DNA from: Tetradesmus obliquus
Lineage: Eukaryota; Chlorophyta; Chlorophyceae; Sphaeropleales; Scenedesmaceae
NCBI GenBank assembly: GCA_030272155.1
Contig: CP126194.1
Span: 2,843,501-2,907,500, forward strand
DNA length: 64,000 nt
Direction of reading: 5' to 3'
Shown: positions 120-57,100 of the stretch, in pieces
Layout: the number at the start of each line of letters is the position of its first letter
Position numbering within the stretch: the first letter of the stretch is position 1
The notes under the pieces: model-generated
Told to the model about the DNA's origin: nothing
The model's database searches: none
What the model saw: the letters and a program-made list of their open reading frames with translations, nothing else
Made by a program: the position numbers and the translations under genes

Positions 120-3100
120 GCGGCCGCAGCGGCCGGAGCTAACTCCCGAGCAGCAGCGGCGGCTCGCGCTGATACGAGCAACGCCAGCACAAGATGCTAA
201 GCAGCAGGCGATGGCGTTTGTGTACCTTGACTTAGATGAAGGGGGCGAGGACATCATCCACTTCAGCGAGCTGTTTGCACCCTCTGACAGCGCCCTGAGG
301 GTGAGTGCCAGCATATACCCTGCACATGTACATAACTGCAGTAGCACCGGCATATTAACAGTGCTACTGCAAGCGAGTTCATGCTGCAAGCGCCGCGGCC
401 TCTGTAGCAGTGCCTAGCTGCCCCTGCAACCCCTGTCTCCGCCTGCCCTGCTGCCCTGCAGGCTTCTCTCGTGGACGCTGCAGGCAAGTCAGCGCTGCGC
501 ATACTGCAGTGATTCCTGCAAGTGGTTCCTGCAAGCACTTCAGCCTCCTCAGTACACGGCTGCTCTTTTTAAACTACTCTCCCTGCTTGCCCTGCTTTTC
601 CTGCAGGCCTCCCATGGATGCTGCAGCAGATCCCCTTCACTGACTCCTGCAAATGCATCAGTATCTTCAGGGGTGTGCTGCTGCGCTTCAGATGCTGTCC
701 CTCCTTGCCGTGCCCTGCCTCTCTTGTAGGCCCTCCATGGATGCTGCAGCAGATCCCCAGTTGCGAGTGATGCTTGCTGCGCTCTGATGCACTCTCCTTG
801 CTTGCCCCGCTTTTCCCGCAGGCCTCCCTCATGGATGCTGCAGGCAAGTCAGCCGCAGCCCACGCAGACGCGCTCGAAAAGGCGCGCCAGCGCTCCGACA
901 GCAACCGCCAGCAGCAGCACCAGCACCTGCTGACCATCGCCGCCGCGCAGCAGCAGGCGCTGCTTGCGGCGCAACAAGGCGAGGACGCATTACAGCAGCA
1001 GCAGCAGCTGCAGCAGCTTGTGCCTGAGCCTGAGGTTGCTGAGGGTGATGAGGCGCTGTTTGGCCAGGCGGAGGGTGAGGCGCTGCGGCTGGCTGCGCTG
1101 CGCGTGGCGGACGGCACGCAGGAGCTGTCAGATGCTGAGGACGAGCTGTTCGTCAACAACGCAGGTGGGGGCTGGGTGTGTGCGTGTGTGTCTAGTTGTG
1201 TGTGTTTGAGCTGGTTTCCTCGCCGTGCGTGTGGTTTGGTGTGAGCTGGCTGCGCTGCGTGTGGCGGATGGCACGCAGGAGCTGTCGGATGCTGAGGACG
1301 AGCTTTTTGTCAACAACGCAGGTGGGGGCTGTGTGTGCGTGTGTCTGTGGCTGTGTGCGCTTGAGCTGGTTTATTTGTCGTGCTTGCTTTTGGTGTGATG
1401 GTGACGTGATGCGGTGCGGGGCATGCGGCTGTCAGATGCGGAGGAACAGCTGATTGACAACAATGCAGGTGGGGGCTGCGTGTTTTGTGATGTTTCTTCG
1501 TGCTTATTGGTCTTTGGGTGGCATGCTGAGTTGCGCTGCATGTGGCTGTCGAATGCTGAGGCGGAGCTGTTGCTCAACAACGCAAGTGAGGAGGTGTGTC
1601 TGTGAGCTTGTATAAGCTTGGCTCCTGGTGCTGCATATAATGGCATTGATTGCATGCCCACTTTTGTGTCTTGCTGCTGCAGGCTTAGGCAAGGCAATGA
1701 TGCGTGCATCCAAAACCAACGCAGCTGCAGCTGCAGCTTCAGCAGCGGCTGATGCTGCAGCAGCGACAGCTGCCACCAAGCGGGCCGCTGCAGCAGCAGC
1801 CAAGGCCGCGGCTGTGACAGCTGCAGCTGGAGATGACGCGCTGACAGTAGAAGAGGCAGAGACAGCTGCCGGGGTGCGGGCGCTGCAGGCAAACCCTTAT
1901 GCCCTAGAGTCGTTAGATGCAGGGATACTGCCGGATTGGGAGTCCAGCATAGATTGGGGCAGCAATCGCACTCATAAAGCAGGGGCAGGCGGCTACGGCC
2001 GCACAGCAGGCAGTGCAGCAGCAGCGGCTGCTGCAGCAGCTGCCGCAGCGGCAGCGGCAGCAGCGGCGCTGCAGGCTCAGCAGCAGCAGCAGCCGTTGTT
2101 GCTGCCGGGCGCTAGCTCGATGCTGCATGGAGCAGGTTCAATGCTGCCTGGAGCAGGATCTGTACTGCCTGGTGCTGGATCTGTACTGCCTGGTGCAGGA
2201 TCTGTACTGCCTGGTGCTGGATCTGTACTACCAGGCTTGCCAGGCAGTATAGGCCTTCCACCAGCCAGCTCAGGGCTACCTCTCTCTGCCGCTGATAGCT
2301 TGCTGCCTGGTGCTGCTTCTATGCTGCCCGGGGGTAGCATGGCGCTTGATGGAGCTGTGCTAGATGCAGCAGCAGCAGCAGCGGCGGCGGCGCCTGCTGC
2401 AGGTGCTGGTGCCGGCAGGGGCAAAGGCAAAGCTGGCAAAGCAGGCAAGCATGCAGCAGGCGGCAACCAGCTGAGCAAACCTCGGAAGCCGTTGGAAGCT
2501 ACGCTGCTTGACCTGAAGACAAACCGGCACATGCTGCGGCTGATGCCGCCGCTGTCAGCAGCTGCTGCTGCAGCAGCCAACGCTGGGGACCAGGCTGGCG
2601 ATCAGGCTGCAGCAGCAGCTGCTGCCGCGGGTGATCGCGCTGCTGCTGCCGCGCTGGCGCCGGCGCGCCAGTGGGGCAGCGGCGGCAGCGGTTCAGGTCT
2701 TGGCGGCATGCAAGGCAGTGTGCGGGGCTTTGGCAGCAGCAGCAGCAGCAGAGAGCAGCCAGCAGTGCTAGATCCTGAGGCTGCTGCAGCAGCAGAGGCC
2801 CTGCAGATCAAGCATGTTCCAGAGCTTCTAGCTCAGGAGTTTAGGCCTGTTCTGCCGGAGGGCGATGACTGGATTGCTGACATAGTTTGGGATAGGGATG
2901 AGGCGGCAGCAGCTGCTGAAGAAGCAGCAGCTGGTGCAGAGGAGCGGGGAGTGGTTAGCCAGCAGCAGCAGCAGCAGCACCAGCTGGAAAAGCAGGTGTC
3001 CAATGTTGACAAGCTCAGCAAGGCAGCACAGCACCATCATCATCAGCAGCAGCTGATGAACAACAACAATATCAATCAGGCGCTGCAGCTGGTTTCTGGC

Positions 3101-6100
3101 GGAGCAGCAGGCCGCCGTGTGCGCGTGGTGTGGGACTTGAATGATCCTCAAATGGTGTTTGAGGCGCCACAGACCGGGCAATACCGCAATGCAAGCGCTG
3201 TGGTGCAGCAGGCTGCGCCAAAGGTATGTGGCAGATGGGGGCAGGGAGCACGAGCAATGCTGGACTGGCTGAAGCTGAGGCATTGCTGGACGTGCAGATG
3301 TGCCGTGTGCAGAACATGGAGTATCATGGATCCTGCAGCTTGCGTCAAACTTGTTGCTATGCTATACCCATGGCTCTGTGCTTGCGACCTGTAGGTGCAT
3401 GTTGCTGCTTTCCAGCGCACAGCATCGTTGCTGTTCTCAGGCATCGACACATGCACGCGTTGCTGCTGCTGCTGCCGCTGCTGGCACTGGCTGCACGCCT
3501 GCTCTCTGCTACCCTGCAACCACTTGCACTTGCAGGTGGTGGTGCACCTGCCGCCGTACCTCCTCACAGAGCAGGACTCACATCGGCATCGTCTGCATCA
3601 CCCGTGCCGTGCTGTCCGCATGCCTGTCCCGCGCAGGTGGTGGTGCACCTGCCGCCGCACCTCCTAACGGAGCAGGACTCACATCGGCATCGTCTGCATC
3701 ACCCGTGCCGTGCTGTCCGCATGCCTGTCCCACGCAGGTGGTGGTGCACCTGCCGCCGCACCTCCTCACAGAGCAGGATGCGCTGCTGCGTGAGCTGGCC
3801 CCGCTGCACATCAGCCGGGACCATTTATACACCAGCGGTGAGCGCACTGCCGGGCGCACCACGGGCACCGGCAAGCACACCAAGATGGCGCTGGACTTCC
3901 AGAACAGCCTGCTGCCGACTGTTCCTAAGGACGCCTACACCGCATTCTGGCACAGGCCCAGGTGAGACAGTGGGATAGCTGACAGGACTGAGGAACGAGG
4001 TTCTAGAACAGCCTGCTGCCGACTTTGCCTACAGCACCTTCTGGCACAGGCCACGGTGAGAGACGGGGATTCCTTTTATCATCATGATTTGGTGGTTGCC
4101 AGCTGTTGATGGCTTTGCCAGCGGTGGGTGCTGCACAGGAAGCGCAGCACAGCTGGAAACACATGTGTAGTGCAGCGCCTGAAGCGTGCAGCTGGTGTCA
4201 TTGCCGCGTTGCTGTTGCATCTGGCACAAGTTACCTCGGCGCTGCAAGCACTTGCGATTTGCCGCACTGCTTCTGCATGCTCAGCTGCAGCTGCAGCTAG
4301 TGGCTGCAGAGTTGCGCCTTGGCTCGTGTGCTTTTACAGTTGAATTTGAACTTCAGCACCTTAACTCATCCTGCATCTTCTACACTATGTTTGCCCTGCA
4401 GGCACTGATGGAGCGCAGCGCACCTGCTGTACACGCTGGTGCAAGGTATATGCTGCAAGATGCAAGCATTGGTATGCCTGATGACACCTGACTTACCCCT
4501 AAACCCGTTGCTGATCTCGCCGCAGGCACTGGTGGAATGTGGCGCACCGGCTGTACGCGCTGGTGCAGTGCATTGGCACATGCGGATTGCCATTATATCT
4601 GACCTGCAGTAGCTGAACTCATCTGTGGCTTTATGCCCTGCAGGCACTGGTGGAATGCGGCGCACCTGCTGTACGCGCTGGTGCGGCGCCAGGCAGACCT
4701 GGACAGGGGGCGGGCGGCAGGCCGGGTGTACAAGTTTGAGGCTGTCAGCCTCACGCTGCGCAAGGGCAAGGTGGCCACCACGACTGACGGGGACGCTGAC
4801 CTGTCCAATGTCTGGCAGGTGAGGTGGTGAGGTGTGGATGAGGTGTGGATGAATGAATGAGAAAATGTATGAGCCACGCGTGGTGTGTTAATACTCGCCA
4901 CCCGCGTAGGTTAAGGGAGCGCGTGTGTGTGTATGACGATCAAGGTGAAGCGGTGAGGTGTGGATGAGGACTAGTTGTTGAAGGGCTGCAGGGGTTTGGT
5001 CAGTGTGTGCTGTGTTGTGCGGGCGCAAGGTGGCCACCACGACTGACGGGGATGCTGACCTGTCAAATGTCTGGCAGGTGAGGCGGTGAGGTGTGGATGA
5101 GGTGTGGATGAATGAATGAGAAAATGTATGAGCCACGCGTGGTGTGTTAATACTCGCCACCCGCGTAGGTTAAGGGAGTGTGTGTGTGTGTGTGTGTGTG
5201 TGACGATCAAGGTGAAGCGGTGAGGTGTGGATGAGGACTAGTTGATGAAGGGCTGCAGGGGTTTGGTCAGTGTGTGCTGTGTTGTGCGGGCGCAAGGTGG
5301 CCACCACGACTGACGGGGACGCTGACCTGTCAAATGTCTGGCAGGTGAGGCGGTGAGGTGTGGATGAGGGCAAGCTGGTGAAGGGCTGCGGGGCAGCAGG
5401 GGTTTGGGCAGTGTGGGCAGTGTGTGTCCTGCGAGGGCAAGGTGGCCACCACGACTGGCGGGGACGCTGACCTGTCAAATGTGTGGCAGGTGAGGTGGGG
5501 AGGTGTGGATGAGGACTAGTTGGTGAAGGGCTGCAGGGCTGCAGGGGTTGGGCAGTGTGGGCTGTGTGTGTCCTGCGAGGGCAAGGTGGCCAGCACGCCT
5601 GACAGGGACGCTGACCTGTCGCAGGTCTGGCAGGTGCGGAACGACAGAAGCGGAAGCTCAGCGCCAGGGAGGAGCAGCAGGGTCTGTGTGGGCTGACAGA
5701 GCGTATGGTTTGGTGCTGACCGCCAGCCATGCGGTGGGAGGTGTTGTGACAACGGTCAGTTGCACTGTGGTATGCTGTTCCATCTGGCTCTGTGGGTTGG
5801 CTCCGTCCGGGCTTGCGCCTTGGGGAGAGCGTGTTGCTTTGTGTGGCTGTCGAGCTGATCACCCTGTTCAGCGAACCTCCTGCTGGTGCAACGCAACCGG
5901 CACGTCTGCATGCTTCATATCACCCTTCTCAACATGTAAGCCCCACACACTGAACGCCTGTATATCTGCAACCTGCGCACTGTGTACTGTATGATTGTGT
6001 GTGCCGCCTGCAGGTGGTGTCGTCACTGCGGGCGTTCAAGGAGGCGTCTACTGCGGAGATGCCGCGCCTGTACGGCCCCGGAGCCAACTATGAGGCTCTG

Positions 6101-9100
6101 GGCTGGGTGGGCGCATGGCTGGACCCCGACAGGTGCGCTGCTCTGTGTGCTGTGTGGCTGTGGTGTGTGCTGTATGTCTGGTTGGCTCTGCTGCCAGTCG
6201 GGTGCGTGGGCGCATGGTTGGACCTGGACAGGTGCGCTGTTGCAGGGCGACGGCTGACCGCGTAGCAGTACGACACTGAGCCTGTATAGGGCCGGGTGTG
6301 GGGTGTCATTGGCTGGACATGGGCAGGTTTAAGGGTGTTGTGCTGTATGGCTGCACGGATCTGCTGAAAGGTAGGTTACGTGGGTGCATGGCTGAACACG
6401 ACAGGTGCGCGAGCAGCACGGAACACACCCAAGCAGCGCTGCATTTGTTCTGTGCGGTGTTGGCATGGCAGTGACTGACACCAGTAGATGGCACATACTA
6501 GCTTGCAGCAAGGCTGGCCCTGCTGACTCGAGTGTTGCTGTCTGCCCTGTCTTGCTGGCCTCCATGCTCGTGCTGCTGCCGTCCGCCCCCTCACTCCTTG
6601 CAACAACCCTCCACCCGGCGCAACAACACTGCAACGCTACCCATCCTGCAGCCCGCTCAGCAGCTTGGGCTTCACCCCGGGCACCAACTTTGTGGTGCCG
6701 GTGTGGATGCGGCTGCAGCCGCTGCGCACAGCAGCAGTGGGCTGCCTGCTGCCGCCAGACCTGCCCTGCAGGTGCGCGGGCAGGTCCTGCAGTCATCATG
6801 TGATGTTTCGAATCCAGGGTCTGGCTATTCATGCTGCATGCATTGAACCAGGCATTGTCGACATACATGTGGCGGCAGCATTGCACAGTCTACGAGTCGT
6901 GCTGTCCACTTGATGCTCTTGCTGGCGCTGCATGCGGCTGTGGCGGTGATAGGATGGACAAATGACTTAGCCTGTGCTGAGACGATTGCATGCAGTTGTG
7001 CTCGTGCTCCGCTCCCATCCAACGGCAGCGCTTGTGTAGTGTTGTGTAGAATGGCTGCACTTAAAGCAATATCACATGCACGATATATTGTGCGCATGCA
7101 GCTGACGCGCCCTCATCCTAACCGGGGGACTAACTGTCGCCGCTGCTGCTGCTCCAGGCCGCCTGCTGCCTTCAAGAACCTGAAGAGCCTCAGCGCTGCC
7201 TCCCCTGGCCACGTGCTGCTGCTGGAGTACCTGGAGGAGCGGCCGCTGCTGCTGCTGCAGCCGGGCATGGGCATGCGCCTCACCACATACTATAGGTGTG
7301 ACCGTGTGTTCGCTTTTCTTCTACTCTCATGCATGCCATGGCTGCTGCTGCTGCTGTCAGCACTTGAGGTGGTGGTTGAGTTGAGTGTTGCAGGATGCGG
7401 AGTCCTGTTGCTGTGTGATTGGTCGCTTGTCCACCTCAAGCAGCTGCCAATGTTTGCTGCCATGATATGCTGTGTGAGCTGCGAACTTGCATTGGCTGCC
7501 TGCATCTCAACTTCGCACTCACCTGTGCCGGTGTTGCCTGCAGGCGCAAGAACGACTCCGACATGCACTACCAGGCGCTGCAGGCTGAGTACAGCGAGGG
7601 GCTGCTGGCGCGGCAGGTGGGAGGGGACAGGGGTGACAGGCAGGCTGCGGGGTATGCTTTTGGCGTCCCTGTGTCTCGCTGCAGCTAGAAGAAGGGCTCA
7701 CAGGCCCTTCCGTCAGCGGCACCAGGGTTGTGCGCCGCCTTTGTAGAGTTGCATGTTGAGTGATGTGTTCAACTTCAGCTTGACTGACGGTTCGCCACAG
7801 CTGCAGCTTGCACAGACCATGCATCTGGCTTTGACCTCGCAAGGAATCACGCCTCTCCAGCAACAAGCTGCACACATATGTGTCTCACCCAGATTGCATT
7901 CACATACTCCGCTGCGCATTGTACGCATCATGCCGTGCAGGCGCTGCCGCTGACGAGTGAGGACCGCTTTGACGCGCGGCCGCCGTGGATGGTGGGCACG
8001 CCGCAGCTGCTGACCCCTGACGACGCCTCGCCCTTCTACGAGCTGGCGCCCATCCCTCCCGGGGAGATGCAGTACGCAGTCGACACACCATGCTTCAGGT
8101 GCGGCGCGCTGCACGGCAAATTGGTTTTGTGCGAGATTTGTACAACACGGGTTTCACCCCAGAGGCTGGTGTCCTGCATGCCATGTCGCAGCGGTCTCAA
8201 CCATTACCCTGCTGTCCTGCGCCCCCTTCCTGCGCACCGAGAAGCAGTTCGCCGTGGACACACCCTGCTTCAGGCGCGGGCAGCGCAGCACCTGAATCTT
8301 GTGCCCGAGCTGCCACCAGGATGAACAATCAGCTACCAGCAAGCGCTCTCCTGTCCTGCGCCTGCTTCTTTTGTGTCTGCAGGGCGCCGGCCGTGCCCCA
8401 TGCGGCGTCAGCCGCGGACCTTTTGCTGGTGCGCAGCGCCCACAAGCAAGAGATCAACTACTTCTCATCCATTTTGACTACTACGCCTCTGCTGTCCTGC
8501 ACCTGCCTCATGCTGCTCTGCAGAGCGCCCGCGGTGCCGCACGTGGCATCAGCCGCGGACTTCCTGCTGGTGCGCAGCGCCACGGGCCAGCTGTCGCTGC
8601 GCGAGCTGACCGGCTGCGTGGCTGTGGGCCAGCAGCACCCCAGCCTGCCCATCTGGGCGCCCATGTCGAATGAAGCACGGGACTACGAGTGCATACGCTT
8701 CAAGGTACGGCGCGGCGCAGCTGCATACGGCATTGTGTGGAGGGCTGGGAATTGACAATGCCAGTTTACCTTCTGCTGGGATTGGAGTTGGTACTAGACA
8801 GTTCAGCGTTGCTGGGGGTTGTAACAAAACTGGTAGCTGCCTTTACAGCTGCGCTTCACTAGTTGTGCAGGTGTTGTGAAGGGCAAGGAGATAGGCCCAC
8901 GGTACAGCTCTCAAAGGACAAGCGCATGCAAGACACAGCGCACTTGCAGCAGGTAATGCGCTGCACGCTGTTCAGTTTGGCTGCAAGCCTTTGAACACCT
9001 TATCACCGCATCAGCACTCGCAACAATATCTGCACCCGCTGCCGCTCCTTGTGTGATGGTCTATCTGCAGGCGCATGTGGTGCGGCTGCTGCGGGCACGC

Positions 9101-9461
9101 ATGGACAAGCCCAACGTGAAGGCAGGCAAGGCCGTGGCATTTGTCAGCATGAGCGAGCTGCTGACTGCCTTTGACGGCATGTCCATCGCCAACGAGGCAG
9201 AGATTATGCGCATGCTGCAAATGGAGTGAGTGGAGCGCGCTGAGTGGAGCCTGCTGCCGCTGTGTATTGTTGCAACCGATTGCTGAATAGCCCCTGCACT
9301 TTCTAACCAGTGGGCTGTGTCGTCAGACATACATCAAATAGCCGCTCAATGTCGGCAGCAGCTGTGCCTGCCTGCATGTCGCCGCCACACAAACCTCAAT
9401 GGAAGAGCTGCATCGGCACCTCAGTCCCTTTCCGCTACACAGCCATGTGACCCGTGCATGC

Positions 9462-9498
<37 letters not shown>

Positions 9499-12400
9499 AG
9501 CTGCCAGTGTGAGCCGGACCCTTTGAAGCCCGGCCACTGGGTGCTTGCAAGTGGTGGCAAGCTGGCCCTGGAGACAGACCTGCGCAAGGAGGTGCGTTTC
9601 CAACACACTGTCTTCTGTGTAAGCCGCTGTAAGGTCAAAGCATAGCTCTGAGCACTCACTGAACTTTCACTCTTGGGGTGACAGTGTAACTGATTGACAA
9701 GAGGTGCGGCATGATGTTAACCGCCTCACGTGTGTGTCATGTCACATGTGACATGTGCAGCTTGCAACGGCTTCTATCAGCTGTGCTTGCAGGGAGAGAA
9801 GTCGTGCTGGCCGGGTTGGCTACTGATGCTGCGTTGAAAAAGCAGTGCTGCTGTGCGCCTGACCTGGGCGGTGGCACAGCCAAAACAGCTGTGTTACATC
9901 CTCAACAAGATGCGCATTCAGCTGGGTCGCTGTGCTTCCTTGAACAATGTGTTTAAACCATGTATATAGTTTTGAGACAATGTTTAAACCATGTTTAAAC
10001 CAGTGAGGAGATAGCCAGTCTGCCCGGCTGCTGACACAGCTCTCCGTCTTCGCTTCCTCCCTCTTCTCTTCCCCACATGCACAGGTCACCCCGGACCAGG
10101 CCGTGCAGTATGAGGCGCTGCTAGCAGGCCTGGGCCAGCGCACCGTGCTCAACGTAATGGCTGCAAACGAGGTGCAGATTGCGCTGGAGGCGACAGGAGG
10201 GCCGGCGCAAGCCACGCTGCGACTGGTGCTGGACATGCTGCTGCCTGATGAGGCAGGGAAGCAGGCTGCTGCTGCCATCGAGGAGTGTGTGCTGGTGAGG
10301 GAGGCGATCTGTGCTGGTGTATGGTAGTTGATGGGTGCGCGCAGCTGTGTTGCGGCTGGTGCTGGACATGCTGCTGCCTACCGAAGCTGGCAAGCAGGCT
10401 GCTGCAGCCATCGAGGAGTGCGTGCTGGTGAGTGAACTGCATAGCTTTGCACGCTGCTGTGATGTACTGGGTGGTGGGATGCGTGCAGCCGTGTGCTGCT
10501 GGAAGTGTGGGTGCTGCTGCCTTTCGAAGGAGAACAGCAGGCCACTGCAGCAGTGTAATTGAAGGGTTGATTGATGATCCATAACATGGCAAATGCGCTT
10601 GCTTATCAACAGCACAGAGCTGGGACCCTGCTCATGCAAGTGAGCCCGCTGCAGTGTGACACGCCAGCCTCACCTTCACAACCCTGCGCTGTCTCTGCGC
10701 CGCACCATCCCGCTACTGTTCCGCAGAACCTGCCCTGGCAGCAGTCTGTCGCATACCACGCCGCGCTGCGTGAGAGCCGCAGCCCTGCTGCATCGTCACA
10801 TTGCGTTCTCACCTGCTCACCATGCTGTGCTGTGCTGTGCTGCGCACACACCATTCTCCTGCAGAACCCGCCCTGGCAGCAGTCCCAAGCGTACCACGCT
10901 GCGCTGCGTGAGAGCCGCATCCCTGCTGCATTGTGACATGGCGTTTTCACCTGCTCACCAAGCTGTGCTGTGCTGTGCTGTGCTGCCTCATCCACACTCA
11001 CCTGCAGACCCCGCGGTGGCAGCAGTCTGCCGCATGCCATGGCGCGCTGCGTGAGAGCGATAGGCCTGCTGCCCCGTGACGTGGCCTTTTCACCTGCTCA
11101 CCATGCTGTGCTGTGCTGTGCCGTGCTGCCATCACTCCCCTGTCCCGCAGAACCCGCCCTGGCAGCAGTCCCAGGCGTACCACGCCGCGCTGCGTGAGAG
11201 CCGCAGCCCCGCGGTGCTGCTGCTGGCGGGCCGAGCTGACCCCACCGGCCGCGGCAGGGGCTTTGCATACACAAGGGAGGACCCGAAGCGGGCTAAGGAG
11301 GAGGCTGCGCCGCCGCAAGGGGTGAATGCGAGGGGCGACGGCACCATCACAGGTGCGGTGCTGTGGCAGGTTGTAGGTTGCAAGCAATGCTGGAGTTTTG
11401 TTGGGGTGCTGGTCGTGTCAAGCAAGGATGACTGAGCAGTAGTGTAGACGCTGGGTTTCTAGCTGCTCTGGAGTGCTCGTCACCATGCGTGTGGCTATAG
11501 CTCACAGGGCTGTCATCGCACAACGCTGCCGGGCCGGGTGGCTGATCAGCTGCTCCTTGCGTGACGAGGCATCACGTGTGCATCTCATCTGCACGCCACG
11601 CGCCCACGCTGCTGACGCCGCAGGCACTGATGCGGACCTGCGCAAGCTGGGCCACAAGCGTGCTGGCGAGCTGCTGGTGGCCAAGCTGGGCATGACGAGC
11701 GATGAGGTGAAGGACCTGGCGCGCTGGGACCGCATCGACGCCATCCGCAGGTGAGCCTGGTTTGACCATTTTTGCTTTTGTTTGACCATGTTGGAATATG
11801 TTGGACCGTTTACCAAGCTGGGCATGACGAGCGATGAGGTGAAGGACCTGGCGCGCTGGGACCGTATCGACGCCATCCGCAGGTGAGCCTGGTTTGACCA
11901 TTTTTGCTTTTTGTTTGACCATGTTGGACTATGTTGGACCGTTGACCCAAGCTGGGCATGACGAGCGATGAGGTCAAGGACCTGGCGCGCTGGGACCGCA
12001 TCGATGCCATCCGCAGGTGAGCGGGGCTGGTTTGACCATGTTTGACCATGTTTGATCATCTTTGACCTTGACCAAGTTGAGCATGACGAGCGATGAGGTC
12101 AAGGACCTGGCGCGCTGGGACCGCATCGATGCCATCCGCAGGTGAGCGGGGCTGGTTTGACCATGTTTGACCATGCTTGACCATGTTAGACCATGTTTGA
12201 CCGTGACGAAGCTGCGCATGACGAGCAATGAGGTGAAGGACCTGGCGCGCTGGGATCGCATCGACGACATCCGCAGGTGAGCGGGGCTGCTTTGACCATG
12301 TTTGACCATGTTTGACCATCTTTGACTGTTGACCAAGCTGGGCATGACGAGCGATGAGGTGAAAGACCTGGCACGCTGGGACCGCATCGATGCCATCCGC

Positions 12401-24017: not shown

Positions 24018-24055
<38 letters not shown>

Positions 24056-27000: not shown

Positions 27001-27897
27001 AAATGCGATTGTGTATATGGTAGCAGCATGCGCCATGGAGAGCGCAGCGCTGCGCCAGGCCTACAAGATGGCCCCGGGGCAGAAAGGTGGGCAATAGTTT
27101 CAATCACCAGAGATATGATTGTGGAGCTGGCAGTAGAAACAGAGGTGGAGAGCGCGGCGCCTGGCAGGGCTGCCAGATGGCTCCGGGGCAGAAAGGTGGG
27201 CAGAAAGGTGGGCAATGTTGGAAATGTGGAATGTTTATGTAACAGCAGCGTGCGCCATGGAGAGCGCGGCGCTGCGGCAGGCCTACAAGATGGCCCCGGG
27301 GCAGAAAGGTGGGCAGCACCAGCCACGCTCCGCTGCAGACAGCAGGAGAAACACTGCGGTGCCTTGCTTAGGGGTTCAGCATCATGTGATGTGTGTTAGA
27401 TCTCTCCCTGGTGCTTATGAGTAAAGTGAATGCAAGAGGACTAAGGTGACAGCCCTTGCATGGCCAGGCTCTGTAGCAGTTTCCCAGAAGCAGACCAGCT
27501 GCAGCGGCGGCATGCTACATACAACCTCAACCAACACCAACTGCTGCCACGGCTGCTGCAGGCGTGCTCATCCGGCGTGTCAACCCCACGTCTGCCGCTG
27601 CGCAGCACCTGCGCGCAGACGATGTGCTGATGAGCTTTGATGGCCAGGACATCGCCTGCGATGGCACAGTGCCCTTCAGGTAAGGCGTAGACATGGAGTA
27701 CTACAGGTGAAAGATAATCTTATCCACAAACTGCAATTCTTGAGTAATTGTGCTGTGGCTTTCACGTGATGCCTCTGCGGGTGTGGCGTTGCAGCTGCAG
27801 CGGCTACCTGCTGGTGTGCACTTTGAAGCACAGGCAGCAGCTCCTAGTCGCATAAAGCAGCGCGGTACGCTCTTGGGTCGTGAGCGGCCATCCTTAC

Positions 27898-28850: not shown

Positions 28851-28883
<33 letters not shown>

Positions 28884-46425: not shown

Positions 46426-47614
46426 ATCCACTACTAGAAAAAAATACGGTCCGTCAGTCAGAAGCCTGGCTTAGGACCTGGCCGTTGAACCCCAGGGCGA
46501 TCCGAAAAAGTGCAGAGGACGCAAACGAAGGCGCGAGAGCAACAGATAAAAGTTAGTGTAGACATGTGAAGTCGTTTCGAAGCCGTGGGCTGGGTGCAGC
46601 GGTGTTCTGTTGCTGGGGTGCTATGCAAAACATCACGGGCTACAGCAGGAACAGCAGGCAGTGAAGCAACAATATCTGAAAAGCGATGGCGTGAGAATAT
46701 TACTTTCAGCGAAAAGCGAACGGGATAGGGATGATCATGGGTGGCTGCTAAGATTGCAGGTGTTGCAGTTGCTGCCTTGAGGACAGCACCAGCAAGCACG
46801 GGTGCCTCCCATCATTACTAGATAGGAGTGACGTAGTCACGGGAAACTGCTATCCACTACTAGAAAAAAAAACTGTCCGTCCGTCCGTCAGTGTAGACAT
46901 GTGAAGTCGTTTCGAAGCCGTGGGCTGGGTGCAGCGGTGTTCTGTTGCGGGGTGCTACTGCAAAACATCACGGGCTACAGCAGGAACAGCAGGCAGTGAA
47001 GCAACAATATCCGAAAAGCGATGGCGTGAGACTATTAGGCGAAAAGAGAACGGGATAGGGAGGATCATGGGTGGCTGCTAAGATTGCAGGTGTTGCAGTT
47101 GCTGCCTTGAGGACAGCACCAGCAAGCACGGGTGCCTCCCATCATTAGATAGGAGTGACGTAGTCACGGGAAACTGCTATCCACTACTAGAAAAAAAAAC
47201 TGTCCGTCCGTCAGTCCGTCAGTCCGTCAGAAGCCTGGCTTAGGACCTGGCCCTTGAACCCCAGGGCGATCCGAAAAAGTGCAGAGGACGCAAACGAAGG
47301 CGCGAGAGCAACAGATAAAAGTTAGTGTAGACATGTGAAGTCGTTTCGAAGCCGTGGGCTGGGTGCAGCGGTGTTCTGTTGCGGGGTGCTACTGCAAAAC
47401 ATCACGGGCTACAGCAGGAACAGCAGGCAGTGAAGCAACGATATCTGGGAAGCGATGGCGTGAGACTATTAGGCGAAAGGCGAACGGGATAGGGATGATC
47501 GTGGGCGGCTTCTAAGATTGCAGGTGTTGCAACTGCTGCCCTGAGCACAGCACCAGCAACAAGGGTGCCTCCCATCCTTACTAGATAGGAGTGACGTAGT
47601 CACGGGAAACTGCT
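46426..47614 (+). repeat. Three tandem copies of a non-coding unit, 426/327/436 nt
   Basis: Copies 46426-46851, 46852-47178 and 47179-47614. Each begins ATCCACTACTAGAAAAAAA, then GTCC/GTCAG microrepeats, and ends GACGTAGTCACGGGAAACTGCT. The middle copy lacks about 105 nt after the GTCC repeat. Copies are otherwise very similar. Internal CTGGCTTAGGAC and GTTTCGAAGCC resemble RNA polymerase III A and B boxes, and the oligo-A recalls a retroposon tail, but no terminator or target duplication proves this. Confidence 0.85.
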
Positions 47615-48827
47615 AGTATTGGTGCTTTTTGGAGCCTACCACGTTTTGCCTTTGGGCTTAAGACCTGGTGTCACTACGGTATTGCATGCCCATGCTGCAC
47701 ATCCAGTTCACGCTGTGCCAATGAGAATGCTGAGAATCATGTACCATGTTTAGTTAACCGTTACCGGGCTCGGCCTGGTCCAGTGCTGTACACATCGAGG
47801 AGGCACAAGCAGGTGAACGGGACAAGTAACTGCAGTCACATTGCAACAGAATTCAGCTACGTGAGTACATGTTTGTCTTCACGGGCGTGCTTCCGAAGCA
47901 GGACGTCGATATCAAGGCCCGCGTGTTGGCGCCTTTTGACACACATGACAATGCATTGCACATGCTGGGAACTGCCTGGCTGCCTGAGTCTTATAGCATC
48001 TGCCAAAACGCGCGCAGCTGCTGCCACTAGCCAAAACCCAAGGAGCGTGACAGCATCAGCCTCGCACTTATCTGGCCCGCTTGCACACCCATGCAATGAT
48101 GGCCTGCTACCATTTCTGCGTGTATAGCTGCATTCAGACTGGACATGCCACTTTACTTGCATACCCGCCAACTGGACACACATAGCTGCAACTGGACATG
48201 CGCAGATCATAGAAAAGTTACATGAGCGTCACAACACATTGCCCGTCTTAGCCATTGACGTGCTCTTTCAGCAACCGCTTGACTCAACATCCATCAGCAG
48301 TTCAGCTGCTGGGGCACGTGCACTTCTGTTGAACTGCCCGCCTCCAAGTCTCACTAGACATCCATGACGGCAGCGTCGATAAACGGTGACACAATCGATT
48401 GCAATCGCAGTAGCAAGCAGTTCTTGCCACAGATGGTACCAACAAGCAACATGAATACTCTGAACATAACGCAAACATTGAATGTTGTGTAAGACGCAAC
48501 TTCTCAACATGCGCCTGCTGCCAAGCAAGTGCAACCTTGTGCACCATTCCCCCCATGAGCGAGACTGTGCCATATGCAATGCATGCTGCAAGTGCAGCGT
48601 CAACACCGTCACACACGGCAAATCTACTGAAACTGCTCACAACGCCAGTGCTGCCCACCAGGCCCCAGCCCCCGCGGCGCAATGCCGCTGATGAGTGAGT
48701 GACCAACGGCGACACCAGGCCATATTAACCCTAACACAGCAGCTGGGGGTGTAGCACTGCAGACGATGCTGACAGTATAGCACTGCACCGCAGTCAACGC
48801 TGGCAGCCGCCGCAACATCACCACCCA
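47615..48827. other. Intergenic, no gene seen
   Basis: 1.2 kb 3' of the JmjN-JmjC gene (minus strand), next to the tandem repeats. It may contain that gene's 3' UTR; a minus-strand TGTAA is at 48218-48222. CTGCAACTGGACA-type short repeats occur near 48150-48200. No supportable exon. Confidence 0.5.
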
Positions 48828-51800
48828 TCACCACTCAAAGTCATCAATGCCATCCACAAGCGGCTCCAGCTCCAGCTCCTCCATTTGGTCACACCCAGGC
48901 GGCTTTGGCACACTGCTCACACTGCTCACCGCAGACGCAGCAGGCCGCACAGGCAGCAGGAACGGCATCGGCGGCGCAGCAGGCACAGCAGCAGCAGCGC
49001 CTGCAGCAGCCTCCTCAGCATCCCCGACACCCTCCACAGCAGCAGCAGCTGCAGCAGCTGCTGCTGCTTCGGCGGCGGCTGGGCTTGCGCCGCTGCTGCT
49101 GGCGCCCTCACCAAGTGCAGCGGGATCTGCTGCAGCAGCTGCTGCTGCTGCTGCAGGCATTGCCGCAGCAACTGCAGGTACAGCAGCAGCTGGCGCACTG
49201 CTGCTTGGCGCTGCAGGCACTGCTGGTGCCTCTGCAGCGCCTGCTGCTGCTGCTGCTGCTGTTGCTTCCACCCCATCCTGCTGCACCTGCAGTGCAGCTG
49301 CTGCTGGTGCTGCGGTTGCTGAGGGAAGCTTGCCTGGTGCTGGTGCTGCTGCTGCAGCTGGCAGCAGCTGCTGCGGGCCTGCTGAATGCTGGTGGCTCAA
49401 GCTCGCTGCCAACCGTGCCTCCGCTTCTGCTGCTGCAACAGCCTCAGCAGCAGCCCTGCTAGCCACAGCCTCAGCTTCTGCTTGTGCAGCTGCAGCAGCT
49501 GCTGCAGCGCTTGCTGCCTCTGAGGAGCGCTGCTGCGCCCCATGCGCATGCTGACTGTGGTCAGCAGCAGCGCCTGCTGCTGCAGCCATTGGCAGCAGCT
49601 GCCCCTGGCCCGGGGTGATTGCTGGCGCAGCAGCAGACACCACAGCTGCAGGCGCTGCCAGGCTCGTTGCAGGCAACACAGCAGCCCCAGCAGCCACAGG
49701 TGCAATTGGCGCCGCACCTACAGGAGCGACCAGCTGCGCCGTGCTTGCTGTTGCTGCTGCTGTTGGATCCAATGCTGGTGCAGCAGCAGCGGCAGATGCA
49801 GGCGGCTGCCCTGCTGCAGCATCACCAGCGGGCACTGCTGCTGCTGCTGGTGCACCAGCAGCTGCGCCGTCACCAGCAGCAGCATCGCCACCACTCGCAG
49901 CAGCAGCAGCAGCAGGTGTAGCAGCTGCAGCAGCAGCGGGTGCCTGACTGGTTGCCGGCTGCACTGGCTGCTGCACTGCATACAGCAGCACAGGCACGCC
50001 ATTCACGTTGTGCACCACCACAGGGAAGCCTTGGAACCCTTGCGGCAGCTGCCCACCAGACACTGCAGCAGCCGTCAGCGCTGCTGCCCTGAGCTGGGCC
50101 TGCATCTGCAGCTGCGCCTGAAGCTGCGCCTGAGCCTGCAGCTGAGCTTGCAGCGCCAGCTGCGCTGCCAGCTGCTGCTGCTGCCCAGCCCCACTGCCAG
50201 CCGCACCCTTACTCAGCTTGCCACCTTTCCCGTCGGCCCTGCTGCCAGCTTTAGCTCCCTTGTAGCCTTTTCCAGCAGAGCCTTGCTGGCCGCTTTCCAT
50301 ATCGACTTCCCAGTCATAGTCTTTGTCTTTCTCGCGCTGCTGCTGCCGCGCGCGGCCTGTTTTAGAAGCGCGCGGCTGCTGCTGCTGCGGGTACGGCTGG
50401 TACACCGGCTGCTGCTGATGATGATGAGGGGGCTGCAGCTGAGGTGGCAGAGCTGCTGCTGCCAGCTGCCGCTGCTCCTGCGCTTGCCGCATCAACTCGG
50501 CCTCCTGCTGTTGCTGCAGCAGCATTTGGCGCGCCAGCCACTTCTCCCGTAGCCGTCGCCGCTGCTGCCGCCGCTGCTGCTTCTGCTGCTGCCGCTGCTC
50601 CTGTGTCTGCTTCGGCTGAGGCGCCGCTGCAAGCGCATCCAGCACATCTGCTGCAATCCCCACGGCCTCTTCTTCACTAACCAGCAGCTTGCTTGTCACC
50701 GCAACACCAACCGGCATGGCAGCAGCCTCTGCAGCATCAAGCTGCTGCTGCTGCTGCTGCTCCTGCTTGCTGTCTGCTGCTGCTGCTGCTGCCCCCTCGC
50801 CATCCAGCCGCCGCTTGCCTGCCTTGCTGCTGCCAGCTTCTGCTGCTGCAGCATCCTCAGCAGCTGTCTTCACTCGCTTTGCAGGCACATGCTCCACAAC
50901 AACATCCTCCGACAGCCATCCCGGAAGCTTCCGCTGCCTCGGCTGCAGCGGCGCATCGTCCCTCTGCGCTGCACCACCCTGCAGCGCCGGCTGCTGCTGC
51001 AGCTGCAGGCTCTGCCGGGCCCTGCTGCCCTTGCCGCCGCGCCGGCCGCCGCCAGACGCCGCAGCTCGCGCGCGCTGCTCCTGTAATGCCAGCAGCTGAC
51101 TCAGCACCTGCTGCACAGCATCATCTTGGCGTGACAGCGGCGGCACTGGCAGCTGCTGCCCGAGGTCCAAGCTGTCAATGTCGCTGCTGCTGCTGCGGAT
51201 GGTTGCCATGGCAGCTTCTGCCAGCACTGCAGCCTCGCTGACTGCTGCGATGCGCTGCCTGCGTGACATGCGGCTGGACGCGCCGTGGCCGACTAGTGGG
51301 AGCCGGCTGGCTGCCAGCTGCATCAGCTGCTTCACCCAGTCTGCAGCAGCAGCAGCAGCGCAGTGGTCCGGTGTCAGTAGATGTCGCAAACAACATGCCT
51401 GACCTTCTATCACGACTCATCAAACGTTTGCTGTGGCAGTATCATCTCCTTCCATCCACCCCGACCAGCCATACCCCGTGCACATGCAACAGCAGAACAT
51501 ACACCACGCCCGTCCCTCAACTCACCTGCCACTGGCGTCGCCGGCTCCCGCCCACACAACACAACACGGCCTCTTGCTGCTGTTGCAGCACTCCACATCA
51601 TGCCCTCTATGCACACCCCACACATACACAGCATCAATCCTGCACCCCTAGAACCCACCTGCCGCTGGCGTCGCCGGCTCCCGCCTACCCAGCTTCAGCT
51701 CAGGGCAGCCCGGCACCGCCAGCACCTGGCAACAACACCCTACCAGCCGCACACACCAGCAAGCCCTCACCACCTAGCCCCAGCCCCTACCCACCTGCCA

Positions 51801-54160
51801 CTGGTGTTGCGGGCTCCCGCCCCCCAGGCTTCAGCTCAGGGCAGCGCGGCGCCGCCAGACCCTGCCCCGCCTCAGCATCAAGCGGCCCCAGCGACTTGAC
51901 CCGCATCCACGGCCGCTGCCGCGGCCGCTGCTGCGCTGCTTTGATGTAGCCCTCCACAGCAGGGAACAGCACCGCAGCCTCAAACACTAGCCGCTGCAAC
52001 TCCACAATACTGTGCCGGAACAGTAGGCTGCAGGAGGCTGGAGTGGCAGCGAGTGCTGCTGCGTGCTCGGGGCACACAGTGCGGCCTGGGGCCTCGCTGC
52101 TGACGACTGCGGAGAGCCACAGGTCGCATTGGCAGAGCTCGCAGACGCAGCCGGCTGTGTCGGTGTGGCAGCCGGCGGCATCTTGGAGCTGCGGGCTGCC
52201 GTGCATGCGCTGCTCCTGTGGGCAGAAGCAGCAGGTTTTGGCAACAGCAGGAATGGGGCAACAGCAGGGTAGTAAGGCGGTCGGTCGGCGGCATCAGGCA
52301 ACAGCAGCAGCTGAAGGTACAAGGCAGCTGGTAAAGGGCGAAATGAGGCTGCAAGCATGAGGAGCAGCATGATCAAGCCAAAAGTGCACACTGCCTGTCC
52401 TTGACGTAGCCAGCGTAACAAACAACAGCTGCTGCAGGTAGCAGCTAGCCTGCTGCTGCTGCTGTTGCCGCTGCATGCGCAGCATCAACATGCTGACGAC
52501 CGCTTTTGACATCAGACAGAATCTGCTACTCATCAGCTAATCACTAGCTAATGTTGACAGCTGCTCACCCGGCCCACGCCAAACAGCAGCGCCGCCTGCT
52601 GCCGGCCCTGCTCCTCCTCAATGCGCAGCACCAGCTCGCCTGCAGCAGCCATCAGTGCAGACTTGGCCACGCTGCGCTGCTTCACACCAGCAGCCCAGCG
52701 CTCACACCAGCTGGCAGCAGCCTCACCCTGCTGCTGCTGCTGGTTTTCACCTTCTGCTGCAGCATCTGCACCTGCACCTGCTGTGGCTGCTGCAGCAGGC
52801 TGGCCTGCCGCCTCGTCATCATCTTCACCAGAGCCCGACCCCAGCTCCGAATTGGAAGACTCCAAGTCAATGCGGGGGTCAAACCTGCCGCCTGCTGCTG
52901 CTGCCGCGCCTGCAGCCACGCCATCCAGCCAGCCCAGCAGCAGCTCATCTTCTGAGTCCTCAGCATCAGACGGCACGTCATCTGCTGCTGCTGCTGCCAG
53001 CTGCTGATGTCCACTGCCGGCAGCAGCAGCAGCCTCAGAGGTGCCAAGCTGCTGGCCATCATCAGCAGCAGCTGCAGCAACAGCGCCATCAGCAGCAGCG
53101 GCCTGACCAGCAGCAGCAGCAGCAGCGTCCTGCTGCAGGTCCTCCTCAGCTGCTGCAGGCTTTGCTGCTGCCTTGCTGCTGCGCTTGGCAGAGCCCGCCT
53201 GCGGCGACTTGCCTGCCTTGGCTGCTGCTGCTGCTGTCGGAGTCTTCGCCTCTTCTGCCTCTGCCTCCTCCTCCTCAGCAGCAGCAGCAGCAGCAGCAGG
53301 ATCTGCTGGATCTCCATCTGCTGCAGCAGGCTTTGCTGCTGCTGCTTCTGCTGCACTGTCTGCGGGTGCTGCGTCTGCTGACTCCACCCCTTCTGTAGCT
53401 GCCGCGGCAGCAGCAGCTGCTGTCGCTGCCTGCGCTTCTGCCGCAGCTGCTGCTGCCGCCTGCCTTGCTGCGCGCCGCTCCTGGCGGGCCAGGCGCGCCT
53501 GCAGCGCTGCCATTGCTGCTGCTGCCACTGCCTCTGCATGCTCCTGCTGCTCCTCCTCGGGTTCCCCTCCCCCTAGGCCATGCGCAGCAGCAACTTGCTT
53601 CGCAGCAGACACCTGCATGGAGCGAGACGCACACAGAGCAGCAGCAGCAGCAGCAGGCAGACATGTCAAGCAGCAGGCAACAAGCACAGAGAGAAGCCCA
53701 GCCCCACCTCAAAGCTTGCTCGTTACTTGCACTTACGGCCGCTGCTGATCATCAATACCACCAAGCCTGCCTACGCTTTGGACACACCCTCACTACCGCT
53801 ACATACGACTGATAAAGTCAGATCGCCAGATGTAAACAGCAAGCACACCCACCAGCGCCACCAGCAGCTGGTCCATGCTGAAGGCATGCCCCAACCCCAC
53901 CACCTGTCCACCACCAAAACACAAACACTAAGCCAACAATTGCACAAGCACACCCACCAGCGCCACCAGCAGCTGCTCCATGCTGAAAGCAGCCCTCCTG
54001 CCCTGCAGCCGCGCCTTGCGCGCCGCATCGCAGCCGTGCCCCAGCCAGTCCCAGGGCGCCAGGCCCAGCCCCTCAGCAGCACAGAAGCCTGTGGCCACGC
54101 TGCAGGTGAAGGCCCCAGGCAGTGCCAGCACAAAGCTGCCGGGCTCCTGCACCAGCCTGC

Positions 54161-54198
<38 letters not shown>

Positions 54199-57100
54199 CC
54201 CGTATAAGCCAGGTGGAGGGCGCCAGACGTCAGTCACAGGAATGATATTGTCTCGAGCGAGGCCATGAGCATGCACCAAGGCAGTGGCTGCTGGAGACAC
54301 CACGCGCCTGCCAGCCTCCAGTCATAGTGCCACAAGTTCAGCGGAGCCATGCAGCTGCCAAGCAAGTGCGTGTCTGCATGCTGCTGTTACATGCTGTGGT
54401 ATTTGAGCCTGGCTATCCTTGCCACTCACCTCGACACTGGCAGGCCCCGTGCAGAGAGCTCATTGGGGCTGACTGCCACCGGCTGCCGCGCCAGCAGCAG
54501 CGGGTCTGCTGCTGCCAGCTGCGGCAGGCAGTCTGCCACTGCCACCTCAAAGGCCTCGCCTGCTTGGCCAGGCACAGCATACCACACCTGATTGAGTGAT
54601 AGCAGGACACAGGCAAACAGTCAGAGGGTATTCGAGATTGTGGCATTGGCTGAACTTCTTGTTTGGCCATCGTATGGCAAGTTTGAGAAAAGCAGGACAC
54701 AGCAAGAAGCACATCAACCGTTTCAACCCGGCCACGCCTGCTTCATCAACAACAAAACAACAAAACACCAAAGATGCATCCAAAGTTCAGACGCGCACCT
54801 GTGGCGCCCCGCTGTGCATGTACTGCAGGCTGTACAGCCCCTGCTGCTCGCAGCGCCAGCCGCTCACAGCCAGGCAGCTGCCCAGCTGCAGCCGCGGCAG
54901 CAGCAGCCCAGGCAGAGGCTGCTCAAACGGCAAGTGCCGCAGCACGCTGCCTCGGCTGCGTGGCAAGCTGTTGAGGTTCCAGCTGCTCGCCGACACCACA
55001 CCTGAAGCTGCTGCTGCTGCTAGTCCTGCTGCATTTGCATCTGCATTGCCAGGCAGCCGCCGCCACGCTGGCAGAGCAAAGCCGCTGCCGAATTTGCTGC
55101 TGTCTAGATCTTGGCCATGCAGAGCTTCCACCAGCCTGCCTGCATGAGGCCGCTCAATGAGCCGCCACACCTCAGCCTCGATCTGCTCTATGCTGGGGTG
55201 CTGCTCGGAAGCATCAGCAGCAGCGCCAGCAGCAGCATCACGCCCTGCAGCAGCTGCAGCAGACGACGCGCCAGCAGCAGCAGCAGATGCATGCCGCTTG
55301 CTACCGCCGCCACTGCCTGCAGCAAGAGCGGCGGCATCGCTGCTGATAGTACCTGCAAACGCAGCAGCAGCTACCGCGCGCGCCTTGCTGCGTGCCGACG
55401 CCTTGGCAGCTGCAGCAGCTGCTGCAGCAGCAGACCCACCGCTGCCAGCCTTCTGCCGCGAGCCCTTCTGCGCGCTGCGCTGCTGTATGCGGGAGCTCTG
55501 TCGCTCTGGCAGCACTGCTGCACCTGCTGCTGCTGCTGCCTTTCCTGATTGAGGCTCCCATTCGTCTGCTGAGCCACTGCCTGCAGCAGCATGCTCATCA
55601 TCTTCCATTTCATCTGCACTGCCATCTTCAGAAGCATCTGACGAGGCTTTCAGCTGCTGCTGCCGCTGCCGCTGCGCCTGCCTCTGCGTCGTCTGCCGCT
55701 GCTGCTTCGGCTTGGCGTCTGTCTTCTGCCGCTTGCCTGGTGGAGCATCCTCATCCTCTTCTGCTGCCTCGTGCTGCTGCTGCTGCTGCTTGGTGCCAGC
55801 AGCATCAGGGGCAGCATTGCTGCCCTGCCCCTGCAGTGCTGCATTGCACGGCTGTGACGAGAAGTGCACACGCGCTGCCCAGTCAGCATAAGCAGCAAAG
55901 GAGCGCAGCGAATGCATCCTGTGCGCTGCCGGCAAGTGCTGGTGCTGCTGCTCGTGCTTGCAAGGCGTCTGCTGCTGATCCAGCTCCTGCTTGACGCGCT
56001 GCTCGCCATGCTCCTGCTTCACTTCAGGTTGCTGCTGCTGCTGCTGCTCCTCGCCCTCGTGCTCCTGCTGCTGCTTGTGTTTGCCGGCAGCGGCCTTGCC
56101 CCGCTGCTGCTTGCCGCGCTGCTTGCTCGCTTTGCTGGCTGATGGCAAAGTGCTGGCAGCAGCTGCCTCTGCAGCTTCTGCCATCTCCACATCACTGCCT
56201 GCATCTGCGCCAGCTGCAGCCGCTAATCCTTCTGCCTTGATGCGTGCTCTGCTGCTGCCAGCAGCGCCTTTCGCACCAGCAGCTGGGCTTGCTGCTGCAC
56301 CGGGTCCTGCCTCTGCAAGGGCATCCAGCTGAGCCAGCAGCGCTGAGTCCTGCCCCAGCAGCAGCTGCAGGCGCTCCTGCTCGCTGGCACTGTCCCAGGG
56401 CAGCTGCGAATGCCTGCAAGCAGCAAGACAGCAGCAGTGATTAGAATTGATCAGTGAGCGCCCCGTGCAAGCAAACGCACACGGAAACAAGCCGCAAGGC
56501 TCGCAGCTCTACGACTGCCTTGTGGCCGCCGCATCCATGCATACCGGAAAAGTAACGTGGAAGCCACCACATGTATGATGCAAGCACTCAAGTCCGCCGC
56601 CGGCGCATGCTGAGAGCGGCACTCAGGCCTCACCTGCCCTCTGCATCCTGCTGCTCCATGCCTGCCGCTGCCGCTGCTGCTGCTGCTGCTGCTGCCACAG
56701 GCGGCGCCGCCCGCATGCACAGGTGGCTCACAAACTGCCGCTGCGCCGCAAACTGCAGCCCCTGCAGCAGCGCCGCAGCATCAGGAGGGGTCCAGCCCTC
56801 TGGCGGGATGATCTTGCAGATGCCGTGCTGCCTTGCAATCTCATCATACACCGCCATGATGTAGCCAAAGGGGTCTGCAAACTCCTCAGCTGTGGGCCTG
56901 AAAGTAGGTGCTTCCGGCAGCTCCACTTGCACCCTGCCTGCATCTGGCTGCCAGCGGGCCATGGGGCGCCATGCAATCGGCTTGATGCGGCAGGCGCTGC
57001 AGCCGGCCTGCAGGACATACAGGAAACAGATGGTGTGGTGAGTGTAAGGTGGCACAGCAGAGCAAGTGACAGGAGAAGATGAGGAAGAAGAGGATGGCGC

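Follow-up and report, generated by a model that had tools for sequence, protein, structure and literature searches.

The edges of coding exons in the green alga Tetradesmus obliquus are repeatedly copied, together with their splice sites, into the adjoining introns. We studied these exon-edge arrays in a stretch of 64,000 nucleotides (nt), referred to here as the window, which spans positions 2843501-2907500 of contig C4 in an assembly of 104.66 Mb in 17 contigs. Three further blocks were added, namely one stretch each of contigs C1 and C9 and a 40-kb stretch of C2, and the sampled DNA amounts to 304 kb with 632 exon junctions. The edge search found a copy of the exon edge in the adjacent intron at 114 of these junctions, 58 at 5' and 56 at 3' splice sites. 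The edge in use and the copy in the intron (the decoy) differ as alleles do, which points to a diverged template. The origin to which we lean, with a little less than even confidence, is that the arrays are duplications of two versions of the same exon edge, produced by one-ended repair between haplotypes followed by end joining. Plain tandem duplication, in which the copies are born identical and then drift neutrally, does not explain how they differ.

Gene models were built with our own semi-Markov gene finder, self-trained on the window and two 100-kb stretches with no annotation used. The finder converged on a strong consensus (CAG/GTGAG and CTGCAG/G) and returned 36 genes with 296 introns. 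Two window genes were verified by homology, using spliced alignment: a Deg-type protease (against protein P0020) and an ARID/PHD gene (against P0140); the remaining models come from the finder alone. P0140 is a protein of 721 residues whose source contig has 2928 bases, which is too short for the 6.45 kb of the ARID/PHD gene with its introns, and the source is thus cDNA-like. The best protein match of the protease is T. obliquus OEZ85_006615, with 602 of 617 identities; the 12 substitutions and 3 gaps would be expected between two haplotypes or strains. The next match, from Scenedesmus sp. NREL 46B-D3, an alga described in PMC7955037 as probably diploid, reaches 90%. OEZ85_006615 sits on a contig of 7,693,345 bases and C4 has 7,755,718 bases, and both contigs would thus appear to represent one chromosome in different haplotypes or strains. 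A TAF1-like gene at 0.2-18 kb of the window matches TAF1 in solved structures. Since the protein search with it returned only distant homologues (best 31%) and no close relative, its exons rest on the finder and on conserved domains. At junctions 5536 and 12276, which are 2 of the 39 array junctions of the window, the finder mis-called or split this gene, and two of the six array-bearing window models are probably one TAF1 gene. A previous inspection of the window (the sequence-only reading) had claimed at least 30 repeated junctions in seven genes, to be compared with the 39 junctions in six gene models counted here; the observation as such is confirmed.

Array junctions account for 39 of 136 junctions in the window, 35 of 186 in the C1 block, 39 of 206 in the C9 block and 1 of 104 in the C2 block, and array density is also unequal between genes (chi-square 67 on 32 degrees of freedom). 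When the window was compared with itself by BLAST, 79 of 85 direct-repeat high-scoring segment pairs (HSPs) lay less than 3 kb apart, and near repeats (less than 1 kb) in three blocks numbered 90, 74 and 97 direct against 14, 9 and 18 inverted HSPs. The offset and direct-repeat statistics were first made on three blocks (264 kb), with the C2 stretch added later; the commonest repeat offsets in these blocks are 100-160 nt, and harmonics appear near 240 and 360 nt. Over all four blocks we counted 121 array loci, of which 104 lie at junctions, 6 in introns, 6 between genes and 5 in exons, while the 42 loci of the window comprise 37 junction, 3 intergenic, 1 intronic and 1 exonic. Among young arrays (HSP identity at least 90%, four blocks) the counts are 44 junction, 3 intronic, 1 intergenic and 1 exonic. 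Planted duplications of 95-150 nt with 2, 5 or 10% divergence were recovered at 99-100% in every compartment, and random placement outside pure exons (2% run) put 99 between genes, 81 in introns and 74 at junctions. An exon edge matched its own intron in 81 of 567 cases and a random control intron in 1 of 567 (25 of the original 592 edges, shorter than 25 nt, were left out). For the 296 sufficiently long exons there were 50 matches to the edge and 4 to the interior. All arrays of the two verified genes span a junction, 7 of 7 in the protease and 8 of 8 in the ARID/PHD gene, where random placement expects 48% each. The sequence-only reading had named, as a result that would speak against it, duplicates no commoner at junctions than inside introns; for recognisable copies the opposite holds, with 44 against 3.

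These counts bear on an alternative that we consider rather unlikely, namely that local tandem duplications of about 120 base pairs (bp) arise at random on the same chromosome, that events in coding sequence are purged, and that copies at junctions stay recognisable longer thanks to the conserved exon. Random duplication with escape from selection had been put forward for the window before, and alone it falls short: per 74 junction events random placement gives 81 intronic and 99 intergenic ones, whereas 3 and 1 accompany the 44 observed at 90% identity or above. The exon share of the unit is also non-uniform (Kolmogorov-Smirnov p 2e-5, n=44). On the other side, intron-side identity at the expected register is 0.57 in outermost and 0.68 in inner copies against 0.40 in controls, and perfect young cases exist. 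Moreover, array-free introns and intergenic DNA are slightly enriched for hidden self-similarity, with 9.0% of 424 and 7.5% of 480 windows, respectively, exceeding the 95th control percentile. The test behind these figures would catch only 35% of known cases, and intronic events are perhaps undercounted. Corrected for this sensitivity, the preference for junctions over introns may be no more than modest. The search could overlook intronic copies that are strongly diverged, and since most spacers lack detectable homology, hidden intronic duplications are also possible. Purely intronic copies would often be unseen if diverged from birth, so that the junction bias may partly reflect recognisability.

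An array has the form edge-spacer-edge-spacer-edge, its last exon edge being followed (5' splice sites) or preceded (3' splice sites) by other intron sequence. Nearest pairs with offsets up to 170 nt, of which there are 80, are spaced 123 ± 20 nt apart and have an exon part of 53 ± 24 nt and a spacer of 71 ± 25 nt, although this cut sharpens the spacing figure and adds to the negative correlation between exon part and spacer. The exon part measures 20-85 nt in 63 of 71 arrays, in good agreement with the terminal 25-90 nt proposed before. The further statement that the unit always includes some intron proved too strong: in the outermost copies the intron-side similarity stops at a median of 9 nt past the splice site, and within 20 nt in 68% of 111. 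Spacer sharing (i >= 40) was found in 13% of these 111 outermost copies and in 40% of 68 inner ones. The splice dinucleotide is intact in 153 of 179 copies (GT in 81 of 93, AG in 72 of 86).

Introns with arrays are longer than those without, the median lengths being 488 nt (n=93) and 274 nt (n=223), and when whole arrays are subtracted the array-bearing introns come to 232 nt, which favours, though it does not prove, insertion of spacer and edge together. Single-copy introns minus the offset measure 266 or 242 nt, similar to array-free introns. Insertion of the exon edge alone (about 50 nt) was rejected: with 50 nt taken off for each copy, the median is still 395 nt, above both the 274 nt of array-free introns and their size-biased median of 366 nt. 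The earlier impression that introns are built inward from duplicated exon edges is not supported: ordinary introns of about 270 nt gained length, and the geometry of intron birth, an offset equal to the intron length (within 6 nt), occurs in 1 of 94 copy pairs. Direct repeats do flank the spacers, as one could bring up in favour of intron gain by introners or by tandem duplication of an AGGT-containing exon piece. The rarity of the required geometry nevertheless stands against it, and so do the matches of window introns elsewhere in the genome, which beyond local copies involve one paralogous gene and short pieces, mostly simple-sequence-like; for most arrays here such gain is already refuted, and we regard it as highly improbable. 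A search with 10.6 kb of window introns from three gene regions, in which the best candidates were considered and common words skipped, found no shared intron family in the same genome.

Three of the 114 families were dropped for low complexity, leaving 111 families with 179 comparisons, and 3 of 41 gene models, containing internal stops, were excluded from codon tests. In 122 comparisons without insertions or deletions (indels), true edge and decoy differ at rates of.064,.069 and.196 at codon positions 1, 2 and 3. The same pattern appears in the two verified genes (.043/.063/.163, 23 comparisons), with one copy per family (.065/.072/.186, 90 families) and between decoys (.083/.066/.176, 47 pairs). 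Simulated neutral duplicates give.080/.078/.124, a third-position ratio of 1.6, and copies born identical and drifting freely should reach at most about 1.75, owing to silent change in the used exon; neutral copies thus cannot attain the observed ratio near 3. Frameshifted copies (19 of 141 comparisons) do look neutral, with.175/.146/.209, and copies with a broken splice dinucleotide show.177/.157/.274 (22 comparisons). Where 17 decoy-decoy pairs have homologous spacers, the exon parts differ by.049/.025/.127 and the spacers by.194, with 36 indels in 677 nt. Variation between the 90 families, expressed as chi-square per degree of freedom, is 1.49 at third positions and 3.09 at positions 1 and 2, and 25 families show no change at all at positions 1 and 2 although 54 of their 331 third positions differ. 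When the copies are modelled as diverged at birth (by 0.082-0.090 at third positions), the fit is better than that of neutral drift by 29-33 units of the Akaike information criterion (AIC), and better than that of models of constrained decoys or of a faster-evolving used exon by 8-13 units. Thus, copies already 8-9% diverged at third positions when they were joined fit best.

Purifying selection on copies that serve as alternative exon edges could also produce such a pattern, and we weighed this possibility, which we find improbable. The codon-position pattern between decoys, the 4 stops in 1572 decoy codons where about 16 are expected at the observed rates, and the largely intact GT and AG dinucleotides speak for it. 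Against it, the spacings leave remainders of 0, 1 and 2 modulo three in 21, 25 and 31 cases, 45 of 77 spacers contain stops (random segments are closed in 49%), splice sites are absent at the inner edges of copies, and 28 of 29 indels in copies shift the frame. The cDNA-like reading frame of 721 codons holds no copy from the ARID gene, and the constraint model is the one 8-13 AIC units worse than divergence at birth. Translation through the spacer, or use of copies as mini-exons, was rejected, as frame, open spacers and inner splice sites are all lacking. No decoys were seen by eye in alternative transcripts among the protein matches P0144, P0150, P0183 and P0184. Spliced alignment of the two verified genes places the copies outside the coding exons, with no new intron or altered mRNA, and within these two genes it agrees with the previous claim that only the copy attached to the exon body keeps the frame.

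The repair origin that we favour would proceed as follows. A break would occur inside an exon, within about 100 nt of a splice site, and one broken end would pair with the homologous but diverged chromosome via the conserved exon. Synthesis from this end would run for about 120 nt, past the exon edge and its splice site and into the intron of the homologue. That intron would be too different to anneal with the other broken end, and the two ends would then be joined without homology. With E standing for the exon edge, the product at a 5' splice site would read body-E(new)/spacer-E(old)/old intron, and at a 3' splice site it would be the mirror image. The coding exon and a working splice site would be restored, the old edge would persist as a decoy, and the intron around it would have gained about 120 nt; arrays of the form (E spacer)n E could result from subsequent exchange among the E copies. 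We infer the other haplotype as the donor, as well as the break repair and the end joining. Under this proposal the junction bias would arise because the conserved exon is required for repair to begin and the intron is where repair breaks down, and the end of the block at the splice site, the added length, the 5'/3' mirror images and the allele-like differences would be accounted for as well. The relevant part of PMC12636532 cites Biondi et al. 2024 for a diploid T. obliquus with extensive heterozygosity, possibly from hybridisation, and the title of the cited work names genetic divergence of the haplotypes of strain UTEX 3031; one chromosome is mentioned as homozygous.

Several results count against the repair origin or lessen the certainty of our figures. 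Clear homology between the spacer and the adjoining intron was detected in only 35% of 94 outermost copies (37 of 111 in another test), while planted copies carrying 22% substitutions and 7% indels were detected in every case; allelic introns should show more homology than this. Nor does spacer homology fall with third-position divergence (rho -0.04, p 0.73). About two-thirds of the spacers therefore have no detectable intron homology and are unexplained by the repair proposal: either the introns of the haplotypes differ beyond point changes, or the spacers have another source, or some arrays arose differently. In the C9 block, 20022-20194 is a perfect local tandem duplication (84 bp, 100%), and at least a few arrays are plain tandem duplications. 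In a less strictly chosen set of 41 decoy-decoy pairs, exon (0.126, 21 indels) and spacer (0.181, 96 indels) contrast less strongly. The analysis depends on our own gene models, and the edge search left out 26 called exons, removed as decoys by a similarity rule. Finally, families within one gene are not independent, so that the codon-position and model-fit figures overstate certainty somewhat.

A process coupled to splicing or transcription, which cuts or copies at splice junctions, would share several of these features, such as the junction bias and the block end at the splice site. The unequal density between genes and the single family in the C2 block likewise look as though expression mattered. 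Alone, however, it does not account for the differences at third codon positions, and we hold it to be quite improbable. The idea of a junction-directed duplication, raised for the window before, thus survives in part: recognisable copies are biased to junctions and the block often ends at the splice site, but splicing or splice signals as the driver are not evidenced.

An assembly artefact, with two haplotypes laid in series where conserved exons meet diverged introns, would also yield exon-anchored repeats with allelic differences, and the species is reported in part of PMC12636532 to be a heterozygous diploid. However, many copies are decayed, with frameshifts in the 19 comparisons and broken splice dinucleotides in the 22 given above. 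The mean divergence at positions 1 and 2, 0.07, far exceeds the 12 substitutions in 617 residues between the protease and its T. obliquus homologue. As many as five near-identical copies occur in one array (C1 block 19320-19859), and there is no N base in 335 kb of sequence. An artefact is thus very unlikely.

With slightly more reserve than for the repair origin itself, we suggest that recombination between diverged haplotypes fails systematically at the borders of exons and introns, each failure leaving a duplicated edge and a longer intron. In heterozygous or hybrid lineages, introns would then keep growing and decoy splice sites keep arising in this way. Past alleles would be preserved in the decoys as in a fossil record, and the introns of hybrid or very diverse species would record failed repair. 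The introns of T. obliquus are given in part of PMC5966456 as long for its order, with a mean of 462 bp versus 230-302 bp in three relatives, and the arrays may partly explain this length. In practice copied exon edges mislead gene finders, and ours called 26 copies as exons.

The arrays of the TAF1-like gene, all on the forward strand, are as follows. At 3' splice sites they lie at 436-853 (exon start 822; copied junctions 461 and 606, with a further diverged copy near 730), 3532-3778 (exon start 3738; copies 3535 and 3636; a 101-bp unit, 96% identical), 4392-4684 (exon start 4644; copies 4401 and 4525), 10645-11212 (exon start 11151; copies 10726, 10864 and 11007), 12570-12884 (exon start 12828; copies 12598 and 12720) and 13876-14313 (exon start 14248; copies 13880, 14004 and 14124). 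Arrays at 5' splice sites occupy 1088-1604 (exon end 1164; copies 1321, 1468 and 1585), 4766-5639 (exon end 4818; copies 5077, 5344, 5489 and, by eye, about 5633) and 11677-12421 (exon end 11750; about six copies), where the finder split the gene. Copies of 5' splice sites are found at 3897-4070 (exon end 3961; copy 4055), 6101-6239 (exon end 6132; copies 6231 and 6404), 8064-8291 (exon end 8098; copy 8273) and 10218-10551 (exon end 10294; copy 10427). The coding sequence of this gene also contains a 21-bp minisatellite at 2123-2229, beside long alanine and glutamine runs.

The homology-verified protease, also on the forward strand, has a 3' splice-site array at 24496-24949 (exon start 24893; copies 24515, 24637 and 24759) and 3' splice-site copies at 26092-26242 (52 bp, 98%; exon start 26195; copy 26095; the spacer is a GATCT run) and 28659-28992 (exon start 28930; copy 28722). 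The GATCT microsatellite (26140-26175) has grown exactly at the inner end of the copied exon edge. At 5' splice sites there are copies at 25360-25513 (exon end 25386; copy 25508, where similarity stops 5 nt past the splice site) and 26298-26417 (exon end 26320; copy 26415), and arrays at 26800-27316 (exon end 26863; copies 26974, 27086, 27195 and 27308) and 29066-29411 (exon end 29130; copies 29257 and 29386). By eye, the first and third copies of the 26800-27316 array share a frameshift, and the second and fourth are intact.

A paralogue of the protease (C15:4216501-4224500), 75-88% identical in the matched pieces, carries arrays at many junctions, some of them where the window gene has none, although exon edges are less certain there. 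In 21 of 25 of its near-repeat HSPs an exonic part is present in exactly one of the two copies. The differences between the two genes indicate that arrays turn over faster than gene copies diverge.

The homology-verified ARID/PHD gene (forward strand) has 5' splice-site arrays or copies at 38390-38718 (an array; exon end 38457; copies 38587 and 38713), 40228-40483 (exon end 40268; copy 40473) and 40980-41255 (exon end 41014; copy 41243). Its 3' splice sites are copied at 38878-39166 (exon start 39126; copy 38922), 39916-40137 (exon start 40080; copy 39960) and 40706-40882 (exon start 40856; copy 40746), and form arrays at 41334-41757 (exon start 41724; copy 41480) and 42104-42537 (exon start 42487; copies 42188 and 42337). 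Elsewhere in the window, a small forward-strand gene model has a 5' splice-site copy at 32667-32842 (exon end 32714; copy 32833, with its GT changed), and a gene model on the minus strand (48828-59363) has two, at 51502-51864 (junction 51658; copy 51525) and 53840-53995 (junction 53957; copy 53852).

Some repeats fall outside this scheme. Arrays at 20744-21093 and 21154-21304 of the window lie outside called genes, and the unit of the former, which by eye looks like an exon end with AACAG/GTGAGTG, may mark an uncalled exon. The clearest intronic exception is 57280-57539, where 80 bp (97.5%) are repeated 180 bp off with a different spacer. A tandem duplication between genes at 46426-47615 repeats every 335 bp (95% identical) and is unlike the arrays with their spacing of 120 nt. 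The array-poor C2 block (C2:3000001-3040000) includes a 36-exon gene model without arrays; possible reasons are homozygosity of the region, another class of genes or an error of the finder. Two tandem copies of 4400 bp, 100% identical, occupy 7041-15839 of that block. A recent tandem triplication at C10:4272001-4292000 has a unit of about 7.1 kb, 97-98.5% identical by BLAST, with 2 differences in 5414 bases between copies 2 and 3; copy 1 is separated from copy 2 by 24 substitutions over an alignment of 7005 bases. Comparison of its copies for array gain or loss found only length changes of the CAG/CTG type.

Tandem duplications in plants reportedly stem from the repair of adjacent nicks, as Schiml, Fauser and Puchta are said to have found in 2016, or from patch-mediated breaks, as is said of Vaughn and Bennetzen in 2014. 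Such duplications are likewise short and local, sometimes with filler, and arise at repaired breaks; their copies, however, reportedly come from the same molecule, whereas those described here look diverged at birth. Closest in structure is a single event in a potato RdRp gene (Ma, Lan and Niu 2016; PMC4974935), a tandem duplication crossing an intron-exon boundary. It resembles our arrays in being local and in taking in the 3' end of an intron together with the first part of the exon that follows. A unit with its splice site flanked by exon and intron, as in that case, is found in all 15 arrays of the verified genes, though in the outermost copies the intron share is often a few nt. The potato event created a new intron and added exon sequence. 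The arrays, by contrast, occur at 114 of 632 sampled junctions and at both kinds of splice site, neither verified gene shows a new intron, and the differences between copies resemble those between alleles. The AGGT model of intron gain, as presented in parts of PMC4974935 and PMC2891723, likewise invokes local exon duplication with splice signals, but predicts an intron length equal to the offset, seen in the one pair of 94. Introners (Gozashti et al. 2022; PMC9860276) have in common with the arrays a fast change of introns, reported there mainly from rapidly evolving lineages such as green algae; their target-site duplications are given as 3-9 bp, whereas each direct repeat here comprises 20-85 nt of exon.

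Recombination between diverged or heterologous sequences giving rearrangements is treated in PMC5783719, which shares with our proposal the failure of homologous repair as a source of tandem structures; the part of it considered here makes no tie to exon-intron borders. A genome-scale description of such a junction density was not found in the open-access literature, subscription journals and preprints being outside that scope. The type of event is known, as single duplications across intron-exon borders, and what is new is the density, nearly one junction in five, and the proposed origin. Should the copies stem from the other haplotype, this origin could be tested directly in a phased diploid genome.

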